Shown here one piece after another: positions 31,218 through 48,804 of a stretch of 64,000 nucleotides of DNA. The notes beneath the pieces are model-generated. The model was given only the letters and a program-made list of their open reading frames with translations. It ran no database searches and had not been told where the DNA came from. Position numbers and translations under genes: made by a program. Source of the DNA: Roseovarius sp. EL26 (GTDB lineage: Bacteria > Pseudomonadota > Alphaproteobacteria > Rhodobacterales > Rhodobacteraceae); assembly GCF_900327775.1 (NCBI RefSeq), contig NZ_OUMZ01000007.1, positions 186,115-250,114 of the forward strand, read 5' to 3'. The stretch's first letter is position 1; every line of letters starts with the position of its first letter.

Positions 31218-32498
31218 TTATAGCTGATCTGCCTGTTTTCCTTTGGGCCATAGCGCATGCGTCCAATCCTCAAAATCCCGTGTCAGAATTAATGCACTAG
31301 CTGCTTGCCATAACGCATGATTCATCCGCTGTCGTTCAAGCGTAACGACGAGTGCGGCGTGCGTTGTTGCACCCGCTGCAGCCATACCTTCAACACGGCC
31401 ACCCAAGGCGCGCATTGTGTTTTCGTCAACATCCACTGTGACCATCTGATCGTGGAGTGATACAGATGCATGGAGTGCTGACTCTATACGACTAATTGTT
31501 CCGGTAACCCATTTCATGTCTGGGGTAAGTCCGGTTAAGGAAAGTTGGACCTCATCATCTACCTGTAACGATTCGGCGATCGCTTGCGGGACGTAAAATA
31601 TCGCGCGGTACGAAACCGCGCTGGAATTTTGCATGGTGACGATTGTGATTGGCCGTTGAAAGCTTTGACCGTTGCTCACCCTGCGCACGCGCAAGACTTT
31701 TCCAGTCGCAGGAGACTGGAGCCGTGGCGCATTCAGATAGGATTTCAACAGTGTTTGATATTGCCGGTCTTGCTTGACGTCTTGTTGGATCACTTTTGCG
31801 CGCTGCAGCAGGCCACGCTCCTGTTTTGTCGACAAAGTACGAAGCTCATAATCAAGTCGTGTGAGCTGTTTTTGCAGTCGATTTTGTTCTAATGAAAATT
31901 CAATGGCTGTGGCGGCTTTGCCTTCGACCTTGGAGGTCAGAGCGAAGGCTAGTTTGGCCCGTTGTCCAAGCATGATCAGTCGTTTACTTTGTCTATCCCG
32001 AAGATCTTGTAAGCGCTGTATCTGCAACGCGTTTTCCTGATGTGACAGCTTGCAATCTTTGAAAGCTGCCCGCATTTGTAATTGACTCTCAGCGTCCAAA
32101 CCGGCCGGAAACGTCGTCATAAGTGCGGCAATGTCTGGGGTAAGAAGACAGTGGCGTAAAGAGGACCCAACCAATACAGAGCGCCTCAGATTATCGAGCT
32201 CAAGCTGCATCAATTCGTGATCAAAGGTTGCAATGGTCTGACCCTGGGTAATAACCTCTCCAGCGGTGACAACTATCGCTTCGAGTGGAATTCTGGCAGG
32301 TAGTTGTAGATCAACCGTCTCGTCAGATGACCGAAGTTCAGCGTGATATTGATGCGCAGTCGGCGCAGATACGTGGCGCAGCAAAGTCAAGGTGACCCCT
32401 AATATACAAAGGCAGGCTAGGCAAGTTGATGCTGCCCAAAGCCATCGCCACCAACCACCTTTTTCAACTGGTATGGTATTTGGTCTGCGCACAATCAT
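31218..32498 (-). CDS. HlyD-family membrane-fusion (periplasmic adaptor) protein
   Basis: An inner-membrane-anchored adaptor that would bridge an inner-membrane exporter to an outer-membrane channel. The 426-residue product has one N-terminal helix (LWAASTCLACLCILGVTLTLL), a split biotinyl-lipoyl domain (LEAIVVTAGEVITQGQTIATF before and PATGKVLRVRRVSNGQSF after; both shown in part) and a long helical hairpin (about residues 95-260, Gln/Leu/Arg-rich) between them. A beta-barrel region follows. It starts 1 nt after the stop of the ABC-like gene, so the two are cotranslated. No TolC-like channel is in the window. In S. meliloti an HlyD-like partner (BgsB) works with the mixed-linkage beta-glucan synthase BgsA, which is the closest known analogy. 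Confidence 0.82.
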   Translation of the reverse strand: MIVRRPNTIPVEKGGWWRWLWAASTCLACLCILGVTLTLLRHVSAPTAHQYHAELRSSDETVDLQLPARIPLEAIVVTAGEVITQGQTIATFDHELMQLELDNLRRSVLVGSSLRHCLLTPDIAALMTTFPAGLDAESQLQMRAAFKDCKLSHQENALQIQRLQDLRDRQSKRLIMLGQRAKLAFALTSKVEGKAATAIEFSLEQNRLQKQLTRLDYELRTLSTKQERGLLQRAKVIQQDVKQDRQYQTLLKSYLNAPRLQSPATGKVLRVRRVSNGQSFQRPITIVTMQNSSAVSYRAIFYVPQAIAESLQVDDEVQLSLTGLTPDMKWVTGTISRIESALHASVSLHDQMVTVDVDENTMRALGGRVEGMAAAGATTHAALVVTLERQRMNHALWQAASALILTRDFEDWTHALWPKGKQADQL

Positions 32499-32499
32499 T

Positions 32500-34461
32500 C
32501 TACGCTCTCATGCTCTTTTTGCGCGGATCATAAATTTCTATTTTGACCTCGATAACCCGCATGTCTGCCTCCATGCGAGTTTCAACGCTGATGGCGTCTC
32601 GCAATACCATCGCAAGGGGGGATAAGGGTTTGATGTCAGAAGATGTATCCATTTCGTGGCGCGCCTTTTCGAGCGCTCCACTGGACATGGGTTGGTCCGT
32701 GTCAAGCATTCTTAAAATGCAATGCCCTTCAAACAGTTTGAACTCAAAGCGCAGGCTTTCTGTTGTGAGGGCAGGTGAGATCCCTTTGCATGAAAAAGCC
32801 AAAAGCTCATTGGCAACGACACAGACGTTGCGACGATTTTGATCATCGCCATCACGGCGAAATTGTGCGCGTAGCCAGCTATCTAAGCCATCTTCGCTGT
32901 CTTGGTTACGGGGGGCGATAAAACGTGTCCAGCCGACGGCGTATTGTTGGCGGATTTCGTCTGCGGTGCCAAAATCAACAACGCGCCCGCCCAACATAAC
33001 AACCATGTCATCACATAAATCAAGCAACTGTCTGTTGTCCGTGCTGATCACGAAGGTTGCGCCAAAACGTTGTTCTTGTTTGATGCGTGCAACTAGGGCA
33101 GACAATACGTGCTCCGAGGCACCATCTTCCGGGCGGTCAAAAAGATAAAGTTGCGGTCGCAAAAAAAACGCTCGGGCGAGGCCCAGCGCTTTTTGTTCGC
33201 TGTCTGCTAAAAGCCTTACATCGGGTGCTTTGCAAATATGTTGGCTGATGTCCGACGTGAAAACAAACCGTGTTAGAATCTGTTCAGCACGTTCGCGTTC
33301 GAATTCATTTCCAAAGCAACTTAGGTTTTGCAACCCTGAACCGGGCATCAAAAATGGGCGCGGGGCAAGATATGTAGCTGTTACACTGCGATCACGTATC
33401 TGGCTTTGCCATGGATATTGCTGTCCAATCCGGACAAAACCGCGGACACTCAAGTTGCTTAAATCATAAGGATTTACCAGTGCGCGCATCAACAAAGATT
33501 TACCCGAAAAGTTGTCACCGGTCAGGGCAATCACCTTGCCCGGCTCAAAATCCAGAGAGATATCAGAAAGCAAGGCGCGACCATCAGGGGCAAATGCAGA
33601 TAGGTTTCGGATCTGGACTCCATCTCCGTCAGCAGTTTCGATATCTTCTGGCGCAGGCAAAAGTGTAACGGCTGCTGCATGGTATTTTTGATCGGGGTCC
33701 GCATCTGAGCGTTGAAGGAAAAAGGCCCCGAAATGCTCAACTGACCAAAAGCTTATAAGGCCAACGGCGACGATCGCACTGTTGTTAAGAATTCCCACCG
33801 CGGCAAGCCAACTTGCGCATGCAAAGCCAATTATCGATGCAAGCCAAGAGACACCACGCAAACCAGCGTTCAGTAAGATGTGCTCTTGGTCGTGCCGGTG
33901 CGATAAATGCAAACCGATTTGGTCTCGCCCGGTAAGAACTGAAATCGCCTCTTGTGGTAAAAAATCCCAAACAGGTTCACGTGATAAAGTACGATTGCCC
34001 AACCAAACCACCAGCCAGCATAATGCGATGCCCGTGGCGAAGGGCAGGCACAGCAAGGGATGCATCACAGTCAGAATGGCCATCAGAAAAACGCCAATGA
34101 TAGCGCGCATAGTTACCGCGCTTTTCTGGCGCAGGTGACGGTACCCAGCCAGTGCCTTGGCATAGCCAATTTCAAAGATGACGAGACCAAGAAGTGGTGC
34201 TATGCCAAGCAATACCAGCAGGGGGGCCATCAGAGTTTGCCCTTGCGTTACAACGAGGGCATCGAAAAATACTGTCAATAGTATGATCGTGATGATGCAG
34301 GCTTCTGTACCAAAAGTGAAAAGAAACGCAAGCGGCTTGATCCAAGCAGGGAGTGTTCTGTCTCGCATCAAAGGGGCGGCTTGTTCTTCTGAAACGGATG
34401 TATTCGTCAGCGATTGATTGCTGCCATTATCCACCGTTTTAACATCACGTACATGCTGCAT
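32500..34461 (-). CDS. ABC-type membrane protein with degenerate ATPase and RsbW-like C-terminal region
   Basis: A 653-residue polytopic protein. Residues 40-250 hold about six hydrophobic segments; 280-510 are an ABC ATPase-like domain. Walker A is intact (GDNFSGKS, 315-322), but the Q-loop Gln is Pro (YLAPRPF), the LSGGQ signature is LADSE (418-422), the Walker B Glu is Arg (LFDRPED, 442-443) and the H-loop His is Asp (ISTDNRQ). Efficient hydrolysis is therefore unlikely, though ATP binding may remain. Residues 520-653 resemble an RsbW/GHKL anti-sigma fold (VANELLAF for the N-box, MLDTDQPM for the G1 box), again without the key Asn and Gly. It is cotranscribed with the HlyD-type gene and divergent from the first DUF3131 gene. 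Confidence 0.8.
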   Translation of the reverse strand: MQHVRDVKTVDNGSNQSLTNTSVSEEQAAPLMRDRTLPAWIKPLAFLFTFGTEACIITIILLTVFFDALVVTQGQTLMAPLLVLLGIAPLLGLVIFEIGYAKALAGYRHLRQKSAVTMRAIIGVFLMAILTVMHPLLCLPFATGIALCWLVVWLGNRTLSREPVWDFLPQEAISVLTGRDQIGLHLSHRHDQEHILLNAGLRGVSWLASIIGFACASWLAAVGILNNSAIVAVGLISFWSVEHFGAFFLQRSDADPDQKYHAAAVTLLPAPEDIETADGDGVQIRNLSAFAPDGRALLSDISLDFEPGKVIALTGDNFSGKSLLMRALVNPYDLSNLSVRGFVRIGQQYPWQSQIRDRSVTATYLAPRPFLMPGSGLQNLSCFGNEFERERAEQILTRFVFTSDISQHICKAPDVRLLADSEQKALGLARAFFLRPQLYLFDRPEDGASEHVLSALVARIKQEQRFGATFVISTDNRQLLDLCDDMVVMLGGRVVDFGTADEIRQQYAVGWTRFIAPRNQDSEDGLDSWLRAQFRRDGDDQNRRNVCVVANELLAFSCKGISPALTTESLRFEFKLFEGHCILRMLDTDQPMSSGALEKARHEMDTSSDIKPLSPLAMVLRDAISVETRMEADMRVIEVKIEIYDPRKKSMRA

Positions 34462-34601
34462 AGGAAACCCAAAAATTACTACTCAACGGGTTCGCATTAT
34501 CCCTGTAAGTCTCTAATTTTTCATTAAGATTGGCATTTACGCAATTTCAATGCTTACCGGGCAAAGTGGATAGGGACTGATGGTAATTTAGTGAGTGCAG
34601 T

Positions 34602-36290
34602 ATGCCTGTGAAACCCGGAGTGACACGTAAATCCGCGACGTTCGGCCTCACGTTGTTGATGGGGGCGGCCATCATGCTGGCGGGTGCTGCATATTCAGTG
34701 AGTTGGGCGGCGCGCAGTATTTTCCTGGCGCAAGAGGAAGAAATTATTCCGATCATTGCCGGTGGAAACCTGGATGACATTCCGGCGTTGATGCGGGGCA
34801 ACCTCCCAACTGTTACAACCAGCCTTGCTCGCGGAGAGCCTAGTCTCCAAAAGCCACCCCGCATGTGTGAAATGCCTGACAACTATTATACGACACTCGA
34901 TGTTGGGCATGATGTTCCCTCGGGATACGATAAGCGCAACAGCTATGTTCGAAAACATCGTGCTCGTCGCGGGTTCCTCAACGAGCGGGAAATACGAGCA
35001 GCAAAGGTGGCTTGGCATTATTTCGAAAAGTTCACGCAAGAAGCGACTGGGTTGGCTAATTCCGTGGGGAATTACCCCTCAACCACATTGTGGGATACAG
35101 CTTCCTATATGGCGGCGATCGTGGCGGCATACGAGTTGTGCCTGATTGAAAAGCCTGAATTTGACCGTCGTATGATTCACTTGCTGACCACCATCAAGCG
35201 ATTGGAGCTGTTTCGCCGTGAAATGCCAAACAAAGTGTATAATACGGCAACAGGTGAAAAGGTGGATTATACAAATAAGGCGGGGGAAATTGGATTTTCC
35301 GCATTGGATATCGGGCGTTTTCTTGTTTGGTTGCGGATCGTTCGCAACCGCTATCCCTATCTTGGTAACACCATAGATTCCGTGCTCTTAAAATGGGACT
35401 TTCGCAATATCATTGATGACGAGGGGCTACTTTTCGGGGCGTACGTTGATAAGGAAACCGGAGAGACGGTGTACGCGCAGGAAGGTCGGCTCGGTTATGA
35501 AGAATACGCGGCCAAAGGATTTGCCTTGTGGGGGTTTCGGCCGTTGCTGGCGCATCGTGCTGAACCGTTCCTGACAGCATCAATGTTTGGGGTGCAGGTC
35601 CCATATGATGGGCGAGATCCACGTATTTTCCATTCTCAGAACTATGTTGTGACCGAATCTTATCTGCAGGACGGGTTGGAACTCGGGTTTGATTTGCCAC
35701 ATGATGATAGCTCTCCTGATTGGCGGCATAGTGATGGTTGGCGCGCAGAGTTCGCAGATAGGATTTATCAGGTGCAGGAGAATCGTTGGCGACACACCGG
35801 TTTCATGACCGCGCGTTCAGAGCACAACGTAAAGGGCCCACCTTATTTTACGTATGACACCATTTTTTCTGATGGTTACCCATGGAACACAGTAACGCCG
35901 CGCGGTGATTATGTCCCGGATCATGCCGCCGTGGCAGCTAAGGCGGCGCTGGGCCTGTGGGCGTTGTGGGATACGGAATACACCGATGTTCTCTACGAGG
36001 CGATCATTGAACTTTATGACCCTGAAAACGGAATGTTTGAAGGGTTATATGAGCGTGGGCAAGGTCGTGTTGCAATCTATACGGCTAATAACAACGGAAT
36101 CATTCTTACTGCCTTGCTTCATAAAGTTCAGGGGAAAATTTTGACACCTTTTGTCGAGGAAACTGAGGTTTGGTATACAGCCTTCCGCGATCAAGACTTG
36201 CGGGAAAAACGTAATTATCCGGATCCACCACAAGAAAAGGACTGGCTTCCAGCCTTGCGGCATTCGGTTCAATTAAGGGACGACTACTGA
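34602..36290 (+). CDS. DUF3131 domain protein, membrane-anchored (first of two)
   Basis: A 562-residue protein with an N-terminal membrane anchor (TFGLTLLMGAAIMLAGAAYSV) and a large periplasmic DUF3131 domain from about residue 130: AAKVAWHYFEKF, NYPSTTLWDTASYMAAI, NKVYNTATGEKVDY, GFSALDIGRFLVWLRI and NNNGIILTALLHK. DUF3131 looks like an alpha/alpha-barrel of the kind used by glycan-active enzymes; activity is unproven. The second copy at 41552-42856 shares the same motifs. Its stop overlaps the next gene's ATG (TGATG). It has only a weak ribosome site. Probable role: trimming or guiding the cluster's polysaccharide in the periplasm (inference). Confidence 0.82.
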   Translation: MPVKPGVTRKSATFGLTLLMGAAIMLAGAAYSVSWAARSIFLAQEEEIIPIIAGGNLDDIPALMRGNLPTVTTSLARGEPSLQKPPRMCEMPDNYYTTLDVGHDVPSGYDKRNSYVRKHRARRGFLNEREIRAAKVAWHYFEKFTQEATGLANSVGNYPSTTLWDTASYMAAIVAAYELCLIEKPEFDRRMIHLLTTIKRLELFRREMPNKVYNTATGEKVDYTNKAGEIGFSALDIGRFLVWLRIVRNRYPYLGNTIDSVLLKWDFRNIIDDEGLLFGAYVDKETGETVYAQEGRLGYEEYAAKGFALWGFRPLLAHRAEPFLTASMFGVQVPYDGRDPRIFHSQNYVVTESYLQDGLELGFDLPHDDSSPDWRHSDGWRAEFADRIYQVQENRWRHTGFMTARSEHNVKGPPYFTYDTIFSDGYPWNTVTPRGDYVPDHAAVAAKAALGLWALWDTEYTDVLYEAIIELYDPENGMFEGLYERGQGRVAIYTANNNGIILTALLHKVQGKILTPFVEETEVWYTAFRDQDLREKRNYPDPPQEKDWLPALRHSVQLRDDY

Positions 36291-37810
36291 TGAGATATTG
36301 CATACTTCGTCTAATCTGTGGAGCCATAGGTGGTTTGTTGACATCGGTCCCACTTTCGGCGCAAAGCCAATCTCAAATTCGTGGATCGGAAAGCTTTGCG
36401 TCTGAAAATGCCATTCTTGATACCTCTGTATTGTTCGCGATTGGAGCACAGGAAGCGCGCCAAGCCATACGTGGTTCTTTCGGATGGCCCACCTTTCAGG
36501 AAGGCCTAGTCGAGGGCGTGTATTTTCGCTTTGATCCCGATGGGTATGCGCGGTTTTCACCGTCTCCCAGGTTGGATTCAGATGTCTTCGAGGTTGTCTG
36601 CCGCCCGCGCACATATTCGTGCATGGGGCGAAAGGGTGGGCTGTCGATGATGCTTACAAGCCGGGGGCAGCTACAGTTAAAATTCGAAGATGTCATGCCT
36701 GCAGACCGCTTTTTTGTTGCGAGTGGGGTGTCGGAGATCCAGGTGCCCGAGCGTATTTTGCAACCACTTGATCACCAGTTCGAGGCCTTGTTGGCAACGG
36801 GTGGTGAGTTGATTGTGCGACGCGGTGAGGACGAACTCATCAAGGCGTCCCTCGAAGGGTTTCACCCAGTTGTCACATATCTGCGATGGGTGATGTCACG
36901 GCAGGATTACACTGTTTTACCGAGGGGATGGCCAGTTCCAAATTCACTTGATGATGGGTCACAACCTGAAGTAACGAATGTGGCAAGTTGGCAATCCCCA
37001 ATGCCCCAACCACAGGTTTTGGCGGTTGACGCTTTTGGATCGGGGTCCACCAATGAGATTGTTGAGGAACTGAAGGATGCTAGTATTTCGGACGTTCGGG
37101 AGGAATTGAAGTTTCTCCGTGAACTTTTGTTGGAACGCTCAGCACAGCCCGCCAACCACATGTCAATGGATACAGCACATGTGCCAACTGAGCCTGTTTA
37201 CCCGGCCGTTGCTAGGCTAACTGATTTTGACGCTATGAGGCCATCTGAATTGGATAGCCGTTTGAAAGAACTGCAAGATGCTGCAAACGAGATACGAACT
37301 CAGATCGATAGGATTAACGGTAATGTTCGCCCCATTGAGAGCGCACGGCATGGAGCATATCCTGATCCGATAGTGCCAGCAGTGAATTCGGGAGAGATCA
37401 ATATGGGCCTGACGCAAGGCACTCAAATGGCCCAGATTGACCAGGCCAGCTCTGGTGAGGAAGTCAAAGGGGCAGATTTGTCTCATAAACTTGCTTATCT
37501 GATTGAAGAGGTCGGACTTGACTCCAAAACGGCGATTGCAGTTTTACAGACGGGTATTTCGAGTGGACCTCCCTCTGTTGTGATAAAGCAACCTCACGTT
37601 ACTGAGGGCGTAACTGAGCTGTACCAAAGTGATGTCGTTTCTGAGATCCTTAGAGAGCTAGAGGGTGATCTGGTTAATACCACCGAAAACACGGCGACGG
37701 CGGCCGTGGCGGGAAACGTGGGAGCGCAGCCCGTTAGCGAAGGAGAGTATAAATTGCTATCCAACTATTTCAAATCTGTCGTCTTTCCTGAACTCAGGCA
37801 TACCCCATAA
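36290..37810 (+). CDS. Secreted protein of unknown function, coiled-coil
   Basis: A 506-residue protein with a signal peptide (LICGAIGGLLTSVPLSAQSQ, cleavage near SAQ) and no recognised domain. The first half (about 25-190) appears globular with two cysteines (VVCRPRTYSCMG) that could form a disulfide. The second half is acidic and low-complexity with likely coiled coils (VREELKFLRELLLERS and SRLKELQDAANEIRTQIDRI) and a repetitive Val/Thr/Ala C-terminus. Its ATG overlaps the DUF3131 stop, so it is translationally coupled and probably a partner in the periplasm. I do not recognise its family. Confidence 0.75.
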   Translation: MRYCILRLICGAIGGLLTSVPLSAQSQSQIRGSESFASENAILDTSVLFAIGAQEARQAIRGSFGWPTFQEGLVEGVYFRFDPDGYARFSPSPRLDSDVFEVVCRPRTYSCMGRKGGLSMMLTSRGQLQLKFEDVMPADRFFVASGVSEIQVPERILQPLDHQFEALLATGGELIVRRGEDELIKASLEGFHPVVTYLRWVMSRQDYTVLPRGWPVPNSLDDGSQPEVTNVASWQSPMPQPQVLAVDAFGSGSTNEIVEELKDASISDVREELKFLRELLLERSAQPANHMSMDTAHVPTEPVYPAVARLTDFDAMRPSELDSRLKELQDAANEIRTQIDRINGNVRPIESARHGAYPDPIVPAVNSGEINMGLTQGTQMAQIDQASSGEEVKGADLSHKLAYLIEEVGLDSKTAIAVLQTGISSGPPSVVIKQPHVTEGVTELYQSDVVSEILRELEGDLVNTTENTATAAVAGNVGAQPVSEGEYKLLSNYFKSVVFPELRHTP

Positions 37811-37903
37811 ACGGCTATATTTGATATAAATATCTTAGGCGGGTTTGCTGTTAACCATGCCTTTGTTTGCGGGAATTTGTTTAAATTTTTAATCAACTGA
37901 TTG

Positions 37904-37950
37904 CCCTTTCCCAATATCGTTAACAAACTATTAACGTTATTGGGAAGGGG
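37904..37950 (+). promoter_or_regulatory. 20-nt inverted repeat covering the GH16 ribosome site
   Basis: Arms 37904-37923 and 37931-37950 pair over 20 positions with one T-T mismatch and one G-T pair, around a 7-nt loop (CAAACTA). The core reads CCCAATAtCGTTAA and its inverse. The right arm ends in GGGAAGGGG, which with the next G forms the only Shine-Dalgarno-like sequence for the TTG start at 37960. As RNA the hairpin would hide this site; as DNA it would be a good dimeric operator. Confidence 0.7.
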
Positions 37951-37959
37951 GCAGGGGCG

Positions 37960-38739
37960 TTGAATGTCGTTTGGGGGAAGTTTGGAGTTTGGTTTATTTT
38001 GTGTCTTACAGTCCACATTGGTGTTGGCCATGCTCAACAGAATTTTATTGATCACTTCAAAGGCCAGGTTTTAGAAAACTGGCAGATTGCTGATTACAAT
38101 TTTACACATCCTAAGTTTGATACCGATTGGCGTCGTCATCAGGTTGAGCTAGGCAATGGTATTAATTTGTCTCTGACATCTAAAGATAATGCCGAAAATC
38201 AATTCGATGGGGCGTCTATTAGACGTAAGGATAAAACGCATTTTGGACGTTATGAGGTCGTGGTCAAACCTGCGCGTGGGGCGGGGGTTATCACTGGTTT
38301 TTTTACTTACACTGGCCCATATTACGGCACTCAGCATGATGAAATTGATATCGAATTCCTTGGCAAGGATACAACGCAGATTCATTTGGCGTGGTTTGTT
38401 GATGGGGAGCTATATAACAAATTTATTGATCTGGGTTTTGATGCGGCGGATCGGCCAAGAATGTACGCTTTTGAATGGGAGGCTGACCGACTGCGGTGGT
38501 ATGCAGAAGGCAGGTTAATTTATGAACATACTTCGCAAGAAGGCCCTATTCCACAGGTGCCAGGATACTTGTACGCCAACCTTTGGGCTTCTGACCCAGT
38601 AATTTCCTCTTGGTCTGGTATCGCTGATACACGGCAGCGCTATGCTGCAAACGTGCGCCGTGTTTCCTATTTGTCCAAAACGAACTGCAAGGCAAGTAGA
38701 TTAAGGTCGTATCTGGGGCACAAGTATTGCCGGGCGTAG
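37960..38739 (+). CDS. Glycoside hydrolase family 16 beta-glucanase, secreted
   Basis: GH16 enzymes cut beta-1,3 and/or beta-1,4 glucans (lichenase, laminarinase type). The 259-residue product has a signal peptide (FGVWFILCLTVHIGVGHAQQ) and the complete catalytic motif HDEIDIEFLG (ExDxE). The start codon is TTG; GGAAGGGGG upstream is its ribosome site and lies inside an inverted repeat. The gene sits between the secreted unknown and the convergent caspase-fold gene, whose 3' end it overlaps by 39 nt. In glycan clusters such enzymes set chain length or release the product, so it implies a beta-glucan-type polymer. A C-terminal basic extension with two Cys (NCKASR, KYCRA) follows the domain. 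Confidence 0.9.
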   Translation: MNVVWGKFGVWFILCLTVHIGVGHAQQNFIDHFKGQVLENWQIADYNFTHPKFDTDWRRHQVELGNGINLSLTSKDNAENQFDGASIRRKDKTHFGRYEVVVKPARGAGVITGFFTYTGPYYGTQHDEIDIEFLGKDTTQIHLAWFVDGELYNKFIDLGFDAADRPRMYAFEWEADRLRWYAEGRLIYEHTSQEGPIPQVPGYLYANLWASDPVISSWSGIADTRQRYAANVRRVSYLSKTNCKASRLRSYLGHKYCRA

Positions 38740-40037: not shown

Positions 40038-40205
40038 ATGATTAGACTTTCTCCAAATGTGATCCATAGTCTGTAAGACAGATGTAAATTTTTCCTTCAG
40101 ATCAGACTTAAAATTTGTGAACACTTTGAACGAAAGTATTACTGGCCTTCATAAACCATAAAGTTTCATGCCCTAGGCTGAGCGGGATCACGGCTAAAGG
40201 TATGT

Positions 40206-41492
40206 GTGGTGTTGTTATTCCGACGAATAGGTTCTGTTTTTCTCATCTGTGCCGGATTGATCTCGCTTTCAGGCTGCGACTATCCGCATACGGGTCTGGC
40301 TCCGGCTGTTGGGCAACCCAACACACGACCCACGCGCAACTTTACCTCCTTTAGCGCGTCACTGCGATGTATGGATGGGTTGTTGGCCAAGTTGCCACGG
40401 CGCTCTTACCTGATCTCTTCTTCTGATATCCTGGATGAGACCCGCCGACTGTCTGTCGGAGCGGATGACATGCTGATAAATGCGATCAATCAAATCAACC
40501 GCAGTAGCCAACGTTATGTCTTTTTGGATCAAGCGCGCATTTCGGGATTTGGGCAGCTGGAGATTGTGACCACACGCAAAAAAGATGAATTGAAGCCCAA
40601 TTTATATATTCGAGGCTCCATTTCGCAGGTGGATACGGATGTAGCCGAGGGCGAGATTGGCACTGTTACGGCGTCGCGGCCCAGTTCGCTGGGGGGGCTA
40701 ACGGGGGCGTCTTACAAGGGGTTCCGTAAATTGTCAGTTGTCTCGGTTGACTTACATCTGGTGCAATATCCGAGCCGCCAAATCGTGCCAGGTGCTTCGG
40801 TGGCCAACTCAATGGTAGTGGTAAAGCGGGGTTTTTCGGGAAAGGCTTCAGGCATCATTGACACGCTTACACTCACTGTCGGCTTTCCGATTTCGATTGA
40901 GCGGGTGGAAAGCCAAAGCCAAGCTGTGAGAAATTTGGTTGAGCTTGGTGTGATTGAATTGCTGGGGAAACATGCCGGAGTGCCATATTGGCAATGTCTT
41001 GACAGTTCTGCCACGAACGCGCGTAAACAAGAACAGCAAGAGCGTAGCTTTGTTTATGGTATGACTGATAATGTAGAGGTGACGACAGCCCAATCCATGC
41101 TGATAACGCTTGGGTATCTGGCTGGTACGGCAAATGGACGGTTGGATGTGGCCACAAAGCGGGCCATTAGCCGGTTCCAAGCAGACGAAAACCTGTTGCC
41201 CAACGGCATCTTAGATTTTGACCTTATGGAGCGTTTGGACGAACGTATAAGGGAGCGTAAGAAAACACGCCCTGCAGAGAGCGCCCCAACACCACAAACA
41301 ATTGATGCGACACAGGGTTTACGCGATACGGCCAAAGTTGTGGCCCCTCCGAAGCCCGTACCGGTGACAGCTCAACCCTCAAAATCTGTGAATGTTCCGG
41401 CGGGACAGTCCCCGAATTGTAATCAGGGGAAAACGTGCGAAGGCATATACAAGAATCTGTATGATTTCATCAAAGAGGATGTCGGATTTTGA
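40206..41492 (+). CDS. CsgG-like outer-membrane lipoprotein with peptidoglycan-binding domain
   Basis: A 428-residue protein with a GTG start (TAAAGG 6 nt upstream) and lipoprotein signal (LICAGLISLSGC). Residues 60-260 look like the CsgG/HfaB assembly-factor fold (GADDMLINAINQINRSSQRY, PNLYIRGSISQVDTDV, VVVKRGFSGKASGIID). Residues 290-350 are a PG_binding_1 domain (AQSMLITLGYLAGTANGRLD, AISRFQADENLLPNGILD). A Pro/Ala linker and a short Cys-containing tail (CNQGKTCEGIYKNLYDF) close it. CsgG forms an outer-membrane secretion channel; this could be the cluster's outer pore or an anchor (inference). Confidence 0.78.
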   Translation: MVLLFRRIGSVFLICAGLISLSGCDYPHTGLAPAVGQPNTRPTRNFTSFSASLRCMDGLLAKLPRRSYLISSSDILDETRRLSVGADDMLINAINQINRSSQRYVFLDQARISGFGQLEIVTTRKKDELKPNLYIRGSISQVDTDVAEGEIGTVTASRPSSLGGLTGASYKGFRKLSVVSVDLHLVQYPSRQIVPGASVANSMVVVKRGFSGKASGIIDTLTLTVGFPISIERVESQSQAVRNLVELGVIELLGKHAGVPYWQCLDSSATNARKQEQQERSFVYGMTDNVEVTTAQSMLITLGYLAGTANGRLDVATKRAISRFQADENLLPNGILDFDLMERLDERIRERKKTRPAESAPTPQTIDATQGLRDTAKVVAPPKPVPVTAQPSKSVNVPAGQSPNCNQGKTCEGIYKNLYDFIKEDVGF

Positions 41493-41551: not shown

Positions 41552-42856
41552 TCACAATGGCCAAAGCGGCCCATAGGCGATGAAGTGAATGGCTTCCAGA
41601 ACTACGGCATTGGTATTGGCTGTTGTCACGGTATTGATCTCTCCTGTGGTCTCATATCGGCCTGACGCCCAGCCTCGATCTGTTTCAAGATCTTTCAACG
41701 CAGCGCGCGCCATCGCGGTATAATCTGTTCCATATAGAGCATCCCAGGCAAAGGCGGCCTTCAGGCTGATGGTGCGCAGTTCTGGATGGTGTTCTCCCTT
41801 TTCTGTCACGACGGCCCAGTTTTTACCGTTGCTGTAAACTGATGAATACAGAAAATAGGGTTCTTGGTTTATATTGTCCTCGGAAACCATCGTGATGTGG
41901 CCCGTTCTGGCGTATCTATTTTCCTGCGCCGCGTAGACACGGCTGGCCAGTGTGGCGCTTTCGCGATTGAAACCAAATTCAAGCCCCTGCATGAAAAAGG
42001 GTTCGCTCAATGTTGGTGTGATTGCACGGAATGTTCCGGCACGCCGCTGGTCGATGGGGATCTCAATGCCAGAAACCTCTTCCCATTCCATAATGGTACT
42101 GGCACTACCGGCGTTCAATGTATCCAACCCCCATAGGGCGGCGGCGCGGGCTGCATATTGTTCATAGCCAATACGGCCTTCTTGTTTGTAGACAACTGTG
42201 CCCCCTTCATGTTGTGCTCCATGTAAACGCCCTTCAAAGGCAAGTGCGCCCAACTCCCAATTTGCCAACACTGCTTGAATGCGCGGGGAAAATTGCGGAT
42301 AGCGCCGTTCCAGAACTCGTAAAGCGGCGAGCATTCGCGCGATGTCTAACGCCGACCAACCGATGCCGGTGTCTGTTGTTTTGTTCTTGTAATCTACCAT
42401 TTTCAAGCTACGCGAATGATACACTTTGTTGGGTAGAACCCCTTCGAAAAGGGGTATTTTCTCCATAGCTTCCAAGAGCTTTTCAACGCGTCGCGTGAAC
42501 TGAGCGGTGTCAATGATCCCAAGATCGCGGGCTGAAATCAATGCAAATAGATAAGATCCCTGATCCCAAAGCGTACCCGAGGGATAGCCTGATACAGAAT
42601 CGACCAACCCGCTTTCGGGTTGATAATTTTTCTCAAAGTAGCGCCAAGCCACTTTGGCGGCGTGGCGGTCAGCATCAGAAAGCGAGCGGGGAGGCTGAAC
42701 TGGTAAAGCACTGGAGTAATCTATCTGTGGGCCATCGCCGGACAACAGAAATTGTTGCATACCATCAGTACCAACGGCCAGCCCAGCGGCCAGAACCAAC
42801 CCGGACAAAAATAACCAACTGCTACGATTGCCGGAGTGGCTTGATGTTTGCGACAT
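41552..42856 (-). CDS. DUF3131 domain protein (second of two)
   Basis: A 434-residue paralogue of the protein at 34602-36290. It has an N-terminal helix (SSWLFLSGLVLAAGLAVG) and a DUF3131 domain with AAKVAWRYFEKNY, GYPSGTLWDQGSYLFALI, NKVYHSRSLKMVDY, GWSALDIARMLAALRV and TTANTNAVVLEAIHF. It lacks the extra ~60-residue N-terminal linker of its paralogue. The start overlaps the GT2 gene end by 35 nt, so it is the last gene of the five-gene minus-strand operon beginning at the acyltransferase. Periplasmic, probably acting on the glycan just made by the GT2. Confidence 0.82.
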   Translation of the reverse strand: MSQTSSHSGNRSSWLFLSGLVLAAGLAVGTDGMQQFLLSGDGPQIDYSSALPVQPPRSLSDADRHAAKVAWRYFEKNYQPESGLVDSVSGYPSGTLWDQGSYLFALISARDLGIIDTAQFTRRVEKLLEAMEKIPLFEGVLPNKVYHSRSLKMVDYKNKTTDTGIGWSALDIARMLAALRVLERRYPQFSPRIQAVLANWELGALAFEGRLHGAQHEGGTVVYKQEGRIGYEQYAARAAALWGLDTLNAGSASTIMEWEEVSGIEIPIDQRRAGTFRAITPTLSEPFFMQGLEFGFNRESATLASRVYAAQENRYARTGHITMVSEDNINQEPYFLYSSVYSNGKNWAVVTEKGEHHPELRTISLKAAFAWDALYGTDYTAMARAALKDLETDRGWASGRYETTGEINTVTTANTNAVVLEAIHFIAYGPLWPL

Positions 42857-44636
42857 GCGTCAGCTCCTCTTTCTTTTTGGGGTTTAACGTAGGGGGAGGG
42901 ACCCAGAAAGCGGCCAGAACAATTCGCCCGACGGCCAGCATGTTCCATCCCAGCCAAAATAGGTTGACCGTAAGCAACGATCGGTCATGTCCGGGCACCC
43001 CTAATTGCGTTTGAATGATACCAAAAATAGCTGCGGTACCCATTATGGTCAGTAACCAGACATTGGGCAGGATATGATGCCGCCCCTGCCCAAAAACCGG
43101 AATTTTCGGGGTGGGGGGGAAACTGGGGCGCCGTTTGCATAGTACCATCCATAAGGCTCGCAGTTGAATGGGAAGAGTGGAAAGAGCTAAGAGGCGCCCG
43201 GGTTGTACAGCATAGCCTTTACAAGCACAGACAATGGCCAATTCGCTGCATAGGATCATCGGCAGAAAATGCAGAAAAAATTCAATAGAATAAGCTTTGA
43301 CCGGGGCAATTCCTAAAACCAATGAGATGACAGGGGCGAACAATAGGACCGGTGTCCACAGCACGGTTATGTATGACCAGAAGGTCGCCGCATAATGCAA
43401 TTTGACACGCCATGGCATGCCTCGGCGCAACAGCGGATTGTCATGCAGCATGATGTCATAGGTGCCGCCGGCATACTTGAGCTTTTGTGCCGCCCAGGCT
43501 TCGACCGTCCAGGGCGAAAGCATTCTCGCTTCGACCTGAGGGTGGTACACTGAAATCCATGCGTCAGCATCCTCCTGCAGCAAGATCGAGGTGTAGATAT
43601 CTTCGCTGACGTGAAAGCGGAACGGCTCCAGTGGGACGCTGTTCAGTATCAGGGCATCTTGCTGCGGATGGTCAAGTTTGCGAGACAATTGTGCAACCGC
43701 ATCCCCCTTCCGCTTGAGCGCAGCTGAAAAGATTGCTTCACGGCGGTGGATTGACCCGGCACCACAACAAAAAGAGGCCCCGTGGCGGTTGCGTCGACGT
43801 TGGATAACATCGAAGAACAATGTCGGTTCCGATAGAAACGGGTCATGTCCGACTGTGTCTCGACCGCTGGTGCGACGTGCAAGCGGTGCCAACCAGCGCA
43901 ACCGTGGTGAAATTTTTTGTGCGATCCAATCGCACCAATGCAAACCCTCGGGAATGTCATAAAACCAGTGCGGAGTCTGAACCCAGGCCACTTTCGGATT
44001 TTTGAAGTACCCAAGGGTGTTTTGCAAAATACCAGTCTCGACCCGTGTATCTGCATCACAGATCAGGATAAAATCACCTCCTGTCTGCATCAGCGCATTT
44101 CGTAGATTTCCAGCTTTGAAACCCTCGTTGCTGTTACGTGACAGATACCCGATCTGCATGCTCTGCGCGAGCTGTGCCATAAAGGGGCGATTACCGTCAT
44201 CCAGAAGGAAGATCTTAACATTTGTATTGTCTGGCAGGGTCAGCTCACGTGCCGCCGCGATTGAGGGACGTAGAACCTCGATTTCTTCGTCGTAAGTTGT
44301 GATGTAGAGATCCACTTTGATCGGGCCCGGCCCGTCAAGCCCGGCTTCGTCCCGAGAGGCCGGTGGTGGTTTGACACGGGTGTCATCCTCTTGCCAGATG
44401 TCATAATAGAACAGTAAACTACCAAGAAAAAATAGACTTTCGGCCATGGTTACAGCGATTGAGAATGCCAAGGCATCCGGGTTGAGGGATTGTGTCCAAC
44501 GCCAGTGCAGATACCACAGCGAAATGCCCGTGGTCATGCCGGCTAGCAGATGCCAACAGTGCATGCGGCGGCGGCTCATTGGGGTAAACCTTGGCGGGCG
44601 ACGGCTCTCATACGGGGTGAAATAGGGGCTGCTCAT
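42822..44636 (-). CDS. Cellulose-synthase-like family 2 glycosyltransferase
   Basis: Inner-membrane processive glycan synthase. The 604-residue product has two N-terminal helices (about 28-80), a cytoplasmic GT-A domain with LLDDGNR (146-148), DADTRV (194-196) and SED (344-346), the FCCGAGSIHRRE acceptor-site segment, and three or more C-terminal helices (about 400-590). The usual Q(Q/R)xRW motif is replaced by QKLKY (384-388), and there is no PilZ domain, so c-di-GMP control is not visible. A role in making a beta-glucan fits with the neighbouring GH16. It is fourth in the operon acyltransferase, STAS-nucleotidyltransferase, unknown secreted, GT2, DUF3131. Confidence 0.88.
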   Translation of the reverse strand: MSSPYFTPYESRRPPRFTPMSRRRMHCWHLLAGMTTGISLWYLHWRWTQSLNPDALAFSIAVTMAESLFFLGSLLFYYDIWQEDDTRVKPPPASRDEAGLDGPGPIKVDLYITTYDEEIEVLRPSIAAARELTLPDNTNVKIFLLDDGNRPFMAQLAQSMQIGYLSRNSNEGFKAGNLRNALMQTGGDFILICDADTRVETGILQNTLGYFKNPKVAWVQTPHWFYDIPEGLHWCDWIAQKISPRLRWLAPLARRTSGRDTVGHDPFLSEPTLFFDVIQRRRNRHGASFCCGAGSIHRREAIFSAALKRKGDAVAQLSRKLDHPQQDALILNSVPLEPFRFHVSEDIYTSILLQEDADAWISVYHPQVEARMLSPWTVEAWAAQKLKYAGGTYDIMLHDNPLLRRGMPWRVKLHYAATFWSYITVLWTPVLLFAPVISLVLGIAPVKAYSIEFFLHFLPMILCSELAIVCACKGYAVQPGRLLALSTLPIQLRALWMVLCKRRPSFPPTPKIPVFGQGRHHILPNVWLLTIMGTAAIFGIIQTQLGVPGHDRSLLTVNLFWLGWNMLAVGRIVLAAFWVPPPTLNPKKKEELTHVANIKPLRQS

Positions 44637-44680
44637 ACTGTCCTTTGCGCCAATGTATAATTTACTGTGGCATGACAGGG

Positions 44681-45445
44681 TTAATTTGAGGTGTTGACTT
44701 TGCGATGATCACGAATCAGGGCATCTGCAACAGACAAAAGCGCATCCCATTCCGTTTCCCCCTGTTGCAGAGCAGGGGAGCTGGTTGAGTAGGACCAGAC
44801 CCCGGCGGACAGCTTGATCCTCAGATCACGTGTCAGCAGTACAGTTTGCGACAGACTGGCAAATACAGAGTAGCTATAATCACAATGCCCGCCGGGATCT
44901 CTAAAAGAAAAATAAATATTTAGCTCTGGCTGTCCGGGTGTGGCTGCGGTTTCCTCTTTTGACAAAACACGCAATCCTGCTTGCCGAAAACGGGTTTTCA
45001 TAGCGGCCTGCAACTCGTCGCCGAAGGTATCGGAAAACCCTGGGGGGGCTTTTAGCTTACGCACATCAAATCCAAATCCGGATATTCCACGCAAAGCCTC
45101 TATCTTTTCCGATTTCGGGAGCGTTTCGGGATTGAAGCCAAGTATGACCTCCGCAGAGTTATGCTGACAAATACGTGGGGCGTCGGGATGCTCGGCCAGA
45201 CGCCCTTGTGCCATTGCTGCCCCGTCCATCATGCCAAACAGGCGGTACATCGCGCTGCTGTCTGCAGCATCAAACAAACGGCTACTGTACCTGTGTTTTT
45301 TCAGGCAATTTGGCCCATCCGGGCAGCCCGTCCCATTTTGTTCTAGACGTTCCCACAAGATCCAGAAACGATCTTGCATCTGTGCCGTGCTAGGATTGCA
45401 GGCCCAACCAAAGATCAAAAGGCTAAGAAGAATACGGTATTTCAT
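44681..45445 (-). CDS. Secreted protein of unknown function, cysteine-containing
   Basis: A 254-residue protein with an N-terminal signal (MKYRILLSLLIFGWACNPST), cleavage possibly at STA-Q; a lipobox is not clear (GWAC). It has five or six cysteines in the mature part (CPDGPNC, RICQHN, GGHCDYSY) that could form disulfides. The C-terminal half (LNIYFSFRDPGGHCDYSYS, SLSQTVLLTRDLRIKL) is beta-rich. No family recognised. It is 3 nt from the STAS-nucleotidyltransferase gene and 44 nt from GT2, so it is a firm operon member and probably a periplasmic component of the glycan machine. Confidence 0.75.
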   Translation of the reverse strand: MKYRILLSLLIFGWACNPSTAQMQDRFWILWERLEQNGTGCPDGPNCLKKHRYSSRLFDAADSSAMYRLFGMMDGAAMAQGRLAEHPDAPRICQHNSAEVILGFNPETLPKSEKIEALRGISGFGFDVRKLKAPPGFSDTFGDELQAAMKTRFRQAGLRVLSKEETAATPGQPELNIYFSFRDPGGHCDYSYSVFASLSQTVLLTRDLRIKLSAGVWSYSTSSPALQQGETEWDALLSVADALIRDHRKVNTSN

Positions 45446-45448
45446 CGG

Positions 45449-46942
45449 CTATCCTGCCTTTATTAAGCCAAACCAACGAGGGCTATGGGTTTCAGGGTGA
45501 GCCGTTCTGACGACGTTATCTAATGGCTCTGTGTTCACAGTTCGACCGTCGGCCTTTTCAGTTTCTATCGTCCAGAAAGGGGAGGCAAAGCGGTGCGCAA
45601 TCTGGCTATAGGCCTTGATTGCCGTGCCTGGATGTAAAATTGTGCTGTGCAGTTGTGCACTGGTCTCAATTCGGCATTTTGCGCCCAAAACACAAGTGCC
45701 TTCAATTGTGGCACCAGCGCGGACAATACTCTCTGCCCCAATGTAGCATGAACCAGTGAGCTGTGCCCGATTGGAAATATCGACGTTTTCATCTACCCAG
45801 ATGCCGGGTGAAATTTGTTCACCAGTGATCTGAATGTTGGGTATTTTTCCTTGCAATCCTTGTTCTAGAACCCGGGCGTAGTCGCGTCCGCAACCCATGT
45901 CGTGCCAGTAGAAATCACCTTGATAGGTCTGAATTTTCCCACCTAGTTTCAGTACTGTCGGCAGCAAATGTTGCGCAATATCTTGATTGGGCATTTCGCT
46001 GATGGTTTCCAGAACACTGGGGGAAATGATGTAAATTCCGACGCTGGCCATGGTTGACACCGCTTTGTTCACAGGCGGTTTTTTCTGAAATGCTGCCACA
46101 CGGCCTGTGTTGTTGGTGGCGATGATGCCGTATTTTCCGGTTTCATGCCGGGCTATGGTTTTTGTCGCGATGGTGATATGCGCATCGCTGGATTTATGCT
46201 GTGCCATCATTTGTGCGAAATCCAAATCAATCAAAGCATCTCCACACATGACGATGAAATCATCCGCAAAGGCGTTGTTGTTGCGGTGCAATCTTCTCAG
46301 AGTGCTGGCTGATCCAACAGGGCTGCCCTCCCATCCATCGTCAGAATTTGACCCTTCGTTTGAAAATAATATGTTACGTTGGTGAGATGCCTGGAAATGA
46401 GCAATGATTTGCCCCCCAAGGTGACCGGGATTCAGGTAGATATCGCGGACTCCGAACCGCTCCAGATGGGTGATCAAATGTTCCAGAACAGGTTTGCCAA
46501 ACACATCAAGCATTGGTTTGGGGGTGTCCCAGCTCAGCGGTGCCATTCTGGTACCTTTACCTGCGCATAAGATGACCACACGTGTGCCAGTTAAGCTGCA
46601 CCGCCGAAATTCAGGCTGGGCCATTGTATCTTCAAGGCTGGCATAAAGTGGTAAGCTGCGGGTTAGACCATAAGCCTCGATCATGCTGCGCACTTTCGGA
46701 CGGGCCTGACAGAATCCAATACGAAGGTGTTGACTGAATGTTGCGAAAAACTCGACCAAAGCGGCCAGGCCGCAATGCGTGATACGAGCCACACCTGATA
46801 AATCTATCAAAACTCCCATACGGCCCGATCGCACGGCCTCTTGTGCTTTTTGAGACAAAAGACCTGCCGATTGTGCCGATAGGCGGCTGGCGGGCATTCG
46901 GATTATCATAACCTGCGGCAAGAGTTGCGAACTATCACGCAT
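45449..46942 (-). CDS. STAS domain fused to sugar-1-phosphate nucleotidyltransferase
   Basis: A 497-residue fusion. Residues 10-110 have the STAS fold pattern (GVLIDLSGVARITHCGLAAL), in which the switch Ser of anti-anti-sigma factors (DSSG) is replaced by THCG (55-58). Residues 120-380 are a nucleotidyltransferase: LCAGKGTRMAPLSWDTPKPM (uridylyl/mannose-1-P type), CGDALIDLDF, KYGIIATNN, YWHDMGCGRDYARVLE. A left-handed beta-helix repeat follows (about 385-450), as in GlmU/ManC/GDP-mannose-pyrophosphorylase-like enzymes. It should make an NDP-sugar (NDP-glucose or -mannose) for the GT2. The fusion is unusual; a regulatory link to the RsbW-like end of the ABC protein at 32500-34461 is inferred. 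Gap to the acyltransferase gene is 19 nt. Confidence 0.85.
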   Translation of the reverse strand: MRDSSQLLPQVMIIRMPASRLSAQSAGLLSQKAQEAVRSGRMGVLIDLSGVARITHCGLAALVEFFATFSQHLRIGFCQARPKVRSMIEAYGLTRSLPLYASLEDTMAQPEFRRCSLTGTRVVILCAGKGTRMAPLSWDTPKPMLDVFGKPVLEHLITHLERFGVRDIYLNPGHLGGQIIAHFQASHQRNILFSNEGSNSDDGWEGSPVGSASTLRRLHRNNNAFADDFIVMCGDALIDLDFAQMMAQHKSSDAHITIATKTIARHETGKYGIIATNNTGRVAAFQKKPPVNKAVSTMASVGIYIISPSVLETISEMPNQDIAQHLLPTVLKLGGKIQTYQGDFYWHDMGCGRDYARVLEQGLQGKIPNIQITGEQISPGIWVDENVDISNRAQLTGSCYIGAESIVRAGATIEGTCVLGAKCRIETSAQLHSTILHPGTAIKAYSQIAHRFASPFWTIETEKADGRTVNTEPLDNVVRTAHPETHSPRWFGLIKAG

Positions 46943-46961
46943 GAACGTTTCCTTTCCGATC

Positions 46962-48095
46962 TTATGTAGCTGTGGTGCTGGGGGCCAGATCGGGCCAAGG
47001 CAGAGGGCCTAAACCGATTGTCCAGGCCAGATGGCGCGAGTGCGATAGGGCAAAAACAAAGCTGCAGGTTAACGGCAGGGCGAGGCCGATTTTGATGCCC
47101 ACCATTTGCATTGGCGTATGGCCGGGCTGCTGTGCGAGCATTTCAGCAAAATCCAGAAAGATCGGATGGCACAGATAGATCCCAAAGGCGTAAGGGGCCA
47201 GCCGTGACAGGATTGGCGGCCAGTTACGATGCCCAAGACACATGCAAAGTCCGAACAACAACACAGGCATCAAAAAGTCGGCCCAATAGCCCGGGGTGTG
47301 ATCAAACGCCCATTTGCCGGTTTCGATTGTTTGCCATGTGGCCGAAAGCTTGCAGGCAAACAAAATTGCTCCTGTCAGCAGAATTGGAATCAGCCATTTC
47401 TGGCGTGCCTTAACAGTGCTGCCTTGCCATAGGGTCAGTAAGGCCGCGGTAGCCATGCCATACCCTGCATAGGTGATCAGTTTGACCACACGTACCAGAT
47501 ACGGCAAAATTTCATGCCCCCAATAGTGGTGATATAGATACAGATCAGCCTCGCGCTTGGTCAAGAGACATGCAAACACGGAAAATCCCAAAGCCGGGTG
47601 ACGTTGTGCGGCCCGAAAGAGTGGGTATATCAAGATCAAACCAAAAAGTGTTGGAATGAAATGCATGTGATACTTAGCAGTACCCAAGAGTAGAAAACCG
47701 GCCCAGCGTTCAGTCGAAAATAGGTGATCAATCGCAGTTGCACCGTACCCAAAATAATGTGCCTTGATCAAAGAGAAGAGCGCGTAAAACACGGTCCAAA
47801 ATGCGAATGGGACCAACAAGCGCCGGGCTTGAATGGCGATTGTCTGCCCATATGAACGCTGGTTGTGTTGCAGGGCCAACAGAAGCAAAAAGACCGAGAT
47901 CATCAGGAACAGTTCTGTCCGGGCTACATATAGCAAGGACCGTATGAACATTGGCCCGACGCGATCGGTAGCGGAAAAACCGCTAAAGGGCTGGCCGGTG
48001 ATGTCTGCCGTCGCATGCAGACCCACCATCGACAGCCCTGCCATAAGGCGCATGGAATCCAACCAGACCAAACGTTCAGCGCCGTGCGATCGCAT
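46962..48095 (-). CDS. OafA-like acyltransferase (acyltransferase 3 family)
   Basis: A 377-residue polytopic membrane protein with about ten helices, starting RLVWLDSMRLMAGLSMVGLHATADI, the acyltransferase-3 opening with the catalytic-site His (SMVGLHAT). Such enzymes O-acetylate or O-succinylate surface glycans (OafA, ExoZ, WecH). It leads the five-gene minus-strand operon, so its acyl groups probably decorate the cluster's polymer. The start ATG at 48095 faces the OmpA-like gene at 48259, divergent over 163 bp. Confidence 0.88.
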   Translation of the reverse strand: MRSHGAERLVWLDSMRLMAGLSMVGLHATADITGQPFSGFSATDRVGPMFIRSLLYVARTELFLMISVFLLLLALQHNQRSYGQTIAIQARRLLVPFAFWTVFYALFSLIKAHYFGYGATAIDHLFSTERWAGFLLLGTAKYHMHFIPTLFGLILIYPLFRAAQRHPALGFSVFACLLTKREADLYLYHHYWGHEILPYLVRVVKLITYAGYGMATAALLTLWQGSTVKARQKWLIPILLTGAILFACKLSATWQTIETGKWAFDHTPGYWADFLMPVLLFGLCMCLGHRNWPPILSRLAPYAFGIYLCHPIFLDFAEMLAQQPGHTPMQMVGIKIGLALPLTCSFVFALSHSRHLAWTIGLGPLPWPDLAPSTTAT

Positions 48096-48258
48096 ATGTA
48101 CACCTCAGAAATCGATACCAACTTGAGGTATAATTTACCAATGAATCCGAATAATTCGTGAATAAAAACAGAATGTTAATTTTATCTTTGTGCAAATTTT
48201 AACTATTAATCTCTGGTTATAGAAATACAGTTATCTGTAAGGGCGGAGGTAACAGCCC

Positions 48259-48804
48259 ATGAAAGTTTCGGCAGTATGTTTTGGTGTGTATTTATGTTCC
48301 ATAGTTCAGAGTGCGTCGGCGCAAAATCTGACGGATTGGGAATTATGCGAAGCCATTTATCGTGAATATGGCATGCGGACAGAGGCCTGTGATCAGGACC
48401 GAGAGCATACTGAGAAAAAAACAGAAAAGCCTTTGGAAAAAGCCCATCAGCTTAGCGCTGAAGTTAAAGAGAGCCATGTGTTTTTTACTCAAGGAGGGGC
48501 GACCCTTTCAGATAACGCACTACAACAGGTCGCCGGGCTGGCATCCGTGCTTGAGACGGCACCAATGCAGCGCGCATGTTTGCGCTTGGTGGGCCATTCA
48601 GACAGCAGTGGTGGGGCAGAGATCAATCAAACGCTTTCAAAACAGCGTGCAGAATCTGTTGCCGCCGCATTGCGCGCAAAGTTGCAGAATGAAGCCAGAA
48701 TCCTAGAGGTATTAGGGGTGGGTGAGACACAGTTGCTAGAGGGTTTTCCCGGCAAGTCACCTTATCATAGGCGAGTGGCTATTCTGGCGCGCGATTGTCG
48801 CTGA
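48259..48804 (+). CDS. OmpA-like peptidoglycan-associated protein (second, secreted)
   Basis: A 181-residue protein with signal peptide (MKVSAVCFGVYLCSIVQSAS, cleavage near SASA), a charged linker (EHTEKKTEKPLEKAHQL), and a C-terminal OmpA domain with HVFFTQGGATLSDNALQQVA and GHSDSSGGAEINQTLSKQRAE. The Asp and Arg expected to bind peptidoglycan are present; barrel and lipobox are absent. CGGAGG is 10 nt before ATG. It resembles the other short OmpA-like protein (39453-40037) in plan and is divergent from the acyltransferase operon. Confidence 0.85.
   Translation: MKVSAVCFGVYLCSIVQSASAQNLTDWELCEAIYREYGMRTEACDQDREHTEKKTEKPLEKAHQLSAEVKESHVFFTQGGATLSDNALQQVAGLASVLETAPMQRACLRLVGHSDSSGGAEINQTLSKQRAESVAAALRAKLQNEARILEVLGVGETQLLEGFPGKSPYHRRVAILARDCR

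Follow-up and report, generated by a model that had tools for sequence, protein, structure and literature searches.

Do the fourteen genes packed between positions 31218 and 48804 of the DNA analysed here form one system, and if so, what would it make? The DNA, called the window throughout, is a 64,000-nucleotide stretch of the Roseovarius sp. EL26 genome (contig NZ_OUMZ01000007.1). Its cluster combines a GT2 synthase, two proteins of the family DUF3131 (DUF3131a and DUF3131b), a STAS domain fused to a nucleotidyltransferase and an ABC-like membrane protein with a kinase-fold tail. The reading we favour, with a little less than even confidence, is that of a synthase-dependent glucan system in which the DUF3131 pair remodels the chains and the partner-switch pair, STAS domain and tail, has become frozen in the lineage of the window. 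Other bacteria have cousins of the cluster in which the switch looks intact, and so the cluster suggests a mode of glucan synthesis and control that has yet to be described.

Recurrence of the cluster

A glycan system had been proposed here from the letters alone (the original prediction), with co-occurrence across Rhodobacterales as the check to make, and the genes do co-occur, both in order-wide searches of 149 Rhodobacterales genomes and in 80 typed loci. DUF3131 was matched in 32/149 genomes. Full-length, high-scoring copies are present in 13, and one more, in genome G109, is cut by a contig end, giving 14 system genomes. All 11 genomes with unkA, all 10 with strong matches to the ABC tail and all 5 with a full-length CsgG-like protein fall among these 14 (Fisher 3e-14, 9e-13 and 4e-6, values that treat genomes as independent, with relatedness uncorrected). 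Weak secondary matches to the tail (8 genomes, E 2e-7 to 1e-12) were left out, which removes G109; six of the eight were inspected and are RTX-linked paralogs. The CsgG-like search matched 136/149 genomes; in 131 of these the match was no better than E 1.7e-10, with the printed positions in the peptidoglycan-binding part, and the count was limited to the 5 full-length matches. Neither DUF3131 nor unkA had a match in any of six same-genus genomes.

All fourteen genes that the original prediction listed are present, and 12 have a Pfam family above cut-off in a scan of 20 frames at 28-52 kb, the exceptions being unkA and unkB. Compared with solved structures, unkA reached no better than E 0.1, to coiled coils. 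Together with a broken neighbour, the features are as follows.

30520..31023, minus: broken RTX remnant (Pfam HemolysinCabind), consisting of a 120-amino-acid (aa) frame at 30661-31023 plus another RTX match, at 30520-30615
31218..32498, minus: HlyD-type periplasmic adaptor (Pfam HlyD_3), one N-terminal transmembrane-like segment (19-41)
32500..34461, minus: ABC-like membrane protein (Pfam ABC_tran), Walker A retained, hydrolysis residues gone
32503..32928, minus: its C-terminal domain (tail) of RsbW/SpoIIAB fold, N-box gone
34602..36290, plus: DUF3131a (E 4e-116), membrane-anchored (alpha/alpha)6 enzyme with E294, E352 and E407 as proposed active-site Glu
36290..37810, plus: unkA, secreted, no Pfam family, in 55/80 related loci
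37960..38739, plus: GH16 (Pfam), lichenase-like, optional
38701..39462, minus: secreted caspase-fold C14 peptidase (E 3e-30), His102/Cys154 retained, optional
39453..40124, minus: OmpA-domain protein OmpA1 (Pfam), partner of the caspase
40206..41492, plus: lipoprotein with CsgG-like N-terminal part and peptidoglycan-binding domain (Pfam PG_binding_1), optional
41552..42856, minus: DUF3131b (E 1e-134), membrane-anchored, E226, E285 and E326 aligning with E294, E352 and E407 of DUF3131a
42822..44636, minus: GT2 cellulose-synthase-like synthase, without PilZ, QxxKY replacing QxxRW
44681..45445, minus: unkB, secreted, no Pfam family
45449..46942, minus: fusion of STAS, sugar-1-phosphate nucleotidyltransferase and hexapeptide parts (Pfam)
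46628..46918, minus: STAS domain within this fusion, with THCG at the site of the DS[ST]G seen in standalone STAS proteins
46962..48095, minus: membrane acyltransferase (Acyl_transf_3)
48259..48804, plus: second OmpA-domain protein, OmpA2 (Pfam)

By strand and spacing, the genes fall into six to seven transcription units rather than the five proposed originally: ABC with HlyD (minus); DUF3131a with unkA, with or without GH16 (plus); OmpA1 with caspase (minus); CsgG-like (plus); acyltransferase, STAS-nucleotidyltransferase, unkB, GT2 and DUF3131b (minus); and OmpA2 (plus).

For locus typing, 80 loci (these and others below carry L numbers) were kept of 564 confirmed relatives in a scan of named genomes. 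Nearly all come from Rhodobacterales and all are close to the window's DUF3131a, which was the query, so that DUF3131a stands at 80/80 by construction. The other system genes recur in 7/80 (CsgG-like) up to 63/80 (acyltransferase), and the four flanking genes used as window controls (AsmA, epimerase, 49378-49836 and SulP) in 0/80, 0/80, 0/80 and 1/80. The window belongs to type 1 (44 loci). Types 1 and 1b are defined through ABC or unkA, and the presence of unkA in 55/55 of them is therefore partly by definition. Of the 36 type-1 loci with full flanks, 35 have ABC (each together with DUF3131a), 33 HlyD, 28 GT2, 26 DUF3131b and 27 acyltransferase. A fused STAS is found in 29/44 type-1 loci and a SpoIIE-like frame in 2; none of the 44 has a standalone STAS or kinase. 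Type 1b (11 loci, 8 from Amylibacter) has caspase, OmpA1, standalone STAS, kinase, DUF3131a, unkA, ABC and HlyD in 11/11, and its flanks contain neither a SpoIIE-like frame nor GT2. Type 2 (25 loci) has SpoIIE-like in 23, STAS in 24, kinase in 23 (by profile or phmmer), GT2 in 24, and DUF3131a, DUF3131b and acyltransferase in all 25. In L121, L107 and L110, and likewise in L148, Pfam finds a SpoIIE phosphatase, a STAS protein and an HATPase_c_2 kinase in one locus.

The caspase/OmpA1 pair, the CsgG-like lipoprotein and GH16, found in 5, 7 and 8 of the 44 type-1 loci, are optional, and the wall-anchored trans-envelope complex of the original prediction would draw on such optional parts; the OmpA2 family is present in 16/44. 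Caspase and OmpA1 occur together in 16/16 loci having either, and 14/14 caspases keep both His and Cys. As to the predicted CsgG-like lipoprotein, its peptidoglycan-binding domain was recovered, and a Pfam CsgG match was missing from the window protein and seen in only 3/10 family members (best E 8e-5).

Synthase, DUF3131 pair and partner switch

The GT2s retain, in 64/64, the D, DxD and ED of beta-glucan synthases, as expected for the beta-glucan-type enzyme originally predicted, and in 63/64 the F, T and K of the gating loop. For the window GT2, cellulose synthase TIGR03030 fits best among NCBIfam models (E 4e-53; at 180.7 bits, far below the cut-off of 699.1), and the six best matches among solved structures are BcsA-type (E 1e-61 to 2e-49). 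The Pfam scan found no PilZ in GT2. QxxRW, compared by way of PMC6821405, is replaced by QxxKY in 63/64, the exception being a Nostoc protein with QRLRW. In the tree, the closest sister of the window GT2 is the Phaeobacter italicus protein, and a 100/100 branch has the 31 type-1 GT2s all on the same side. Judged from these sequences and the lichenase-like GH16, the polymer is likely a beta-glucan; given the QxxKY motif, "glucan" is itself a deduction. The "export" of the original prediction is not supported: none of the 20 scanned frames holds a beta-barrel porin or polysaccharide-export family, and the ABC-like protein is without catalytic Glu and LSGG.

DUF3131a is predicted to adopt the (alpha/alpha)6 fold of the GH189 cyclisation domain and shares N-terminal sequence with GH189. 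Of its proposed catalytic residues, E294 is kept in 157/158 and E407 in 156/158 DUF3131 sequences, and E294 lies opposite the GH189 acid/base Glu (E1356) by motif only. Because the GH189 His pair is missing, we regard DUF3131 as a sister group of GH189 and not as a member. A possible mutual exclusion between cyclic-glucan-synthase genomes and system genomes was also considered: 10 genomes with a DUF3131-hit frame of 2811-2974 aa and the 14 system genomes, counted by eye, share 0 where 0.9 would be expected by chance, which alone gives no support.

The switch components of the window appear disabled on both sides. The STAS domain has THCG at the place of the phosphorylatable Ser, and DS[ST]G is found in 0/30 fused STAS domains (every one could be read; that of L078, with 119 bits, is doubtful); the standalone STAS rows used for comparison score 40-70 bits and are shorter than 150 aa (130 aa in later loci). 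The ABC tail has an RsbW fold, and its kinase N-box is missing in the window; the strict pattern occurs in 1/51 tails vs 30/30 standalone kinases (30 of 31 used, one dropped for length). The tail did not arise by fusion of the operon's own kinase, because type-1b loci hold both and because RTX-linked paralogs are also tailed. The SulP-type transporter just outside the cluster (50840-52465), which has a STAS domain of its own, was rejected as tail partner, as it neighbours the system in 1/80 loci; it also lies beside HlyD in L061 and is otherwise unlinked.

The ABC protein itself has lost the hallmarks of type I exporters: in window-type proteins the catalytic Glu is found in 0/51, LSGG in 0/50 and the H-loop His in 1/51, while the same patterns find the Glu in 21/24 and LSGG in 18/24 other ABC ATPases. 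Loci L168-L173 contain a secretion pair whose motif-intact ABC ATPase bears a kinase-like (RsbW-like) domain, and in 6/6 of these loci the ABC gene has HlyD on one side and on the other an RTX gene, which is split in L170 and codes for 766-817 aa in the other five. The N-terminus of the window RTX remnant resembles these RTX proteins, whose long kin occur in 9/25 type-2 loci and beside Vibrio-type operons. Because the intact paralogs flank RTX genes and the window remnant adjoins HlyD, the most fitting view of the type-1 ABC/HlyD pair is that an RTX secretion pair was copied, degenerated and was retained for another task. HlyD, kin to that pair, thus gives no evidence for the BgsB-like partner that the original prediction saw in it.

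Beyond the order, the Vibrio-type records (L148-L150 and, on a plasmid of Vibrio sp. THAF190c, L165) share an operon of REC-SpoIIE, STAS, nucleotidyltransferase, kinase, GT2, three DUF3131 genes and an unassigned gene, followed by GH16 in 3/4. A Pantoea agglomerans plasmid carries kinase, STAS, SpoIIE, OpgC, a cellulose synthase subunit, three DUF3131 genes and a hybrid kinase, and a Paracoccus seriniphilus plasmid the type-2 set. A Nostoc plasmid (L166) has three DUF3131 frames, a cellulose-synthase-type GT2 (that with QRLRW), STAS and a SpoIIE frame, and no kinase match was seen in the L166 stretch. DUF3131 matches lie on 26 plasmid records, including Pantoea 8, Sulfitobacter 7, Paracoccus 2, Salmonella 2, Vibrio 1 and Nostoc 1. 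Block 3b of Klebsiella pneumoniae, in the accessible portion of PMC12974863, comprises cellulose synthase, three DUF3131 genes, OpgC, a hybrid kinase and an anti-sigma factor with its antagonist. From the Vibrio-type, Pantoea, Paracoccus, Nostoc and (as far as that portion goes) Klebsiella loci, we conclude that a partner switch often accompanies the GT2/DUF3131 pair. Open PubMed Central (PMC) literature, with subscription papers and preprints outside the scope, yielded no description of DUF3131 function or of such an operon type. The word "undescribed" in the original prediction thus stands for the parts list, absent from open PMC papers, and has to be qualified for the cousins: the accessible text of PMC12974863 lists a similar locus without mechanism, and the Pantoea and Paracoccus plasmid cousins are already annotated gene by gene.

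Other arrangements were seen among the loci. In L158-L161 a very large GT2-like frame (1126-1175 aa) adjoins a DUF3131-containing protein of 796-857 aa. L151-L153, from genomes of about 2 to 2.5 Mb, combine a STAS-like frame with GT2 and two b-type DUF3131 genes, L153 with an additional PAP2-type phosphatase gene. In Jiella mangrovi (L154 and L155, one genome, also the source of L109) the system genes are split over two contigs, one with two acyltransferases and two DUF3131 genes, the other with GT2 adjoining an 838-aa DUF3131 frame.

Weighing of the readings

In the mechanism that we propose, the nucleotidyltransferase would supply the nucleoside-diphosphate sugar and GT2 would drive a beta-glucan into the periplasm, where the DUF3131 pair would cut and rejoin chains (cyclising, branching or transferring, in the manner of GH189) rather than simply hydrolyse them; the acyltransferase may decorate the product. 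In Vibrio fischeri, the SypA/SypE partner switch controls Syp polysaccharide. A phosphorylatable STAS could gate synthesis likewise in the type-2, Vibrio and Pantoea kin. In the window lineage, with a STAS lacking the phospho-site and a tail lacking the N-box, the switch would be frozen, and STAS and tail might serve as a constitutive dock keeping the nucleotidyltransferase at the membrane complex. Accessory envelope and turnover functions would fall to caspase/OmpA1, the CsgG-like protein and GH16. A bolder version we hold to be rather improbable: that the DUF3131 proteins are new retaining beta-glucan transglycosylases, forming with GT2 a split relative of cyclic-glucan synthase, gated by a partner switch in alpha- and gammaproteobacteria and perhaps cyanobacteria, and that one Rhodobacterales lineage made the switch a permanent scaffold, with a dead STAS, borne by the sugar-nucleotide enzyme, docking the dead anti-sigma-kinase fold of an equally dead ABC protein. 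DUF3131, a Pfam family without an assigned function, adjoins cellulose-synthase-like genes in loci from Rhodobacterales, Pantoea and Nostoc and in the Vibrio-type loci, partly on plasmids. If its members were GH189-like transglycosylases, some "cellulose synthase" annotations would mark systems for remodelled, perhaps cyclic or branched, glucans, and phospho-site and N-box, lost together, would show cleanly how a signalling pair can become a structural one.

Several observations count against the favoured reading. The significant DUF3131-GH189 match is confined to the N-terminal ~90-100 residues; a low-confidence extension aligns E407 with the GH189 nucleophile (E1442) and does not align E294 or E352 with the other two Glu. 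The catalytic mapping is motif-based, and comparison of the catalytic parts alone was not significant (0.1%, E 0.5), with the SE motifs again opposite. The His pair H1536/H1537 is not kept (N496 in 151/158, N or T at 497), and Foldseek puts other beta-1,2-glucanases ahead of the structure 8wy1 (rank 11). To these add the QxxKY motif, the absence of GT2 within 10 kb in 8/36 full-flank type-1 loci, and a fused STAS not seen in 15/44 type-1 loci, 9 of them longer than 19 kb. On the side of the switch, the phospho-position is Thr in 1/30 fused STAS domains, a loose ExxxN occurs somewhere in 15/51 tails, and the tail may serve the ABC protein alone.

That last point leads to a different account, in which the ABC/HlyD pair secretes an RTX or other protein, lies beside the glycan genes by accident and has the RsbW-fold tail as a private regulator. 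The position of the intact paralogs in 6/6 loci and the RTX remnant next to the window HlyD fit it; the catalytic Glu, LSGG and H-loop His are lost, yet the ABC gene accompanies DUF3131a in nearly all full-flank type-1 loci, and we judge the account improbable. A chance neighbourhood of envelope genes without relation to each other, with which optional parts and variable gene order would agree, is contradicted by the co-occurrence and the flank control, and its probability is close to nil.

Two further alternatives concern the polymer. The cluster could be a BgsA-like machine for a mixed-linkage beta-1,3-1,4-glucan exopolysaccharide, trimmed by GH16, with the DUF3131 proteins as BcsZ-like hydrolases. 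GH16, recognised as a glucanase in the original prediction and lichenase-like by sequence, has 1,3-1,4-beta-glucanases (lichenases) as its closest matches (3o5s, E 3e-40; 1gbg, E 6e-39) and is also the last gene in three Vibrio-type operons, L148, L150 and L165 (by Pfam in L148); GT2 lacks PilZ, as does BgsA according to PMC5567048. We think this alternative unlikely, if worth keeping in view. Similarly doubtful is a polymer other than an extracellular one, suggested by the GH189-like fold of DUF3131a, the OpgC-domain gene of the Pantoea cousin, the OpgC named in the accessible list for Klebsiella and the lack of an outer-membrane porin family in the scanned frames; the lichenase-like GH16 and the linked RTX proteins better suit an extracellular polymer, and GT2 is cellulose-synthase-like.

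Comparison with known systems

The favoured glucan system resembles several known ones in part. With BcsA it shares the GT2 D, DxD and ED residues, the gating-loop F, T and K and an (alpha/alpha)6 partner enzyme; it differs in having QxxKY, in lacking PilZ and in the absence of a BcsB or BcsC family from the scanned frames, and its partner enzyme is closer to GH189 than to GH8. The mixed-linkage glucan synthase BgsA of S. meliloti, according to PMC5567048, is likewise a GT2 without PilZ, whereas the window system has the DUF3131 pair, partner-switch parts and an HlyD akin to an RTX secretion pair. GH189 is approached in the fold and N-terminal sequence of DUF3131a and through the OpgC gene of the Pantoea cousin. 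In contrast to GH189, the DUF3131 proteins are separate and membrane-anchored, two or three per locus, with proposed catalytic Glu and the His pair lost; GT2 is cellulose-synthase-like, and the scanned frames contain no GH94 family. Klebsiella block 3b has the same kinds of genes in the authors' list, as far as the accessible text of PMC12974863 goes; it is an accessory-gene block without mechanism, and the likeness is by that list and not by sequence.

The SypA/SypE system differs in its polysaccharide genes, and in the window lineage STAS is fused to the nucleotidyltransferase, its phospho-site is gone and the kinase fold is the tail of an ABC protein. What the type-2 and Vibrio-type loci have in common with it is that STAS and kinase/phosphatase genes adjoin polysaccharide genes.

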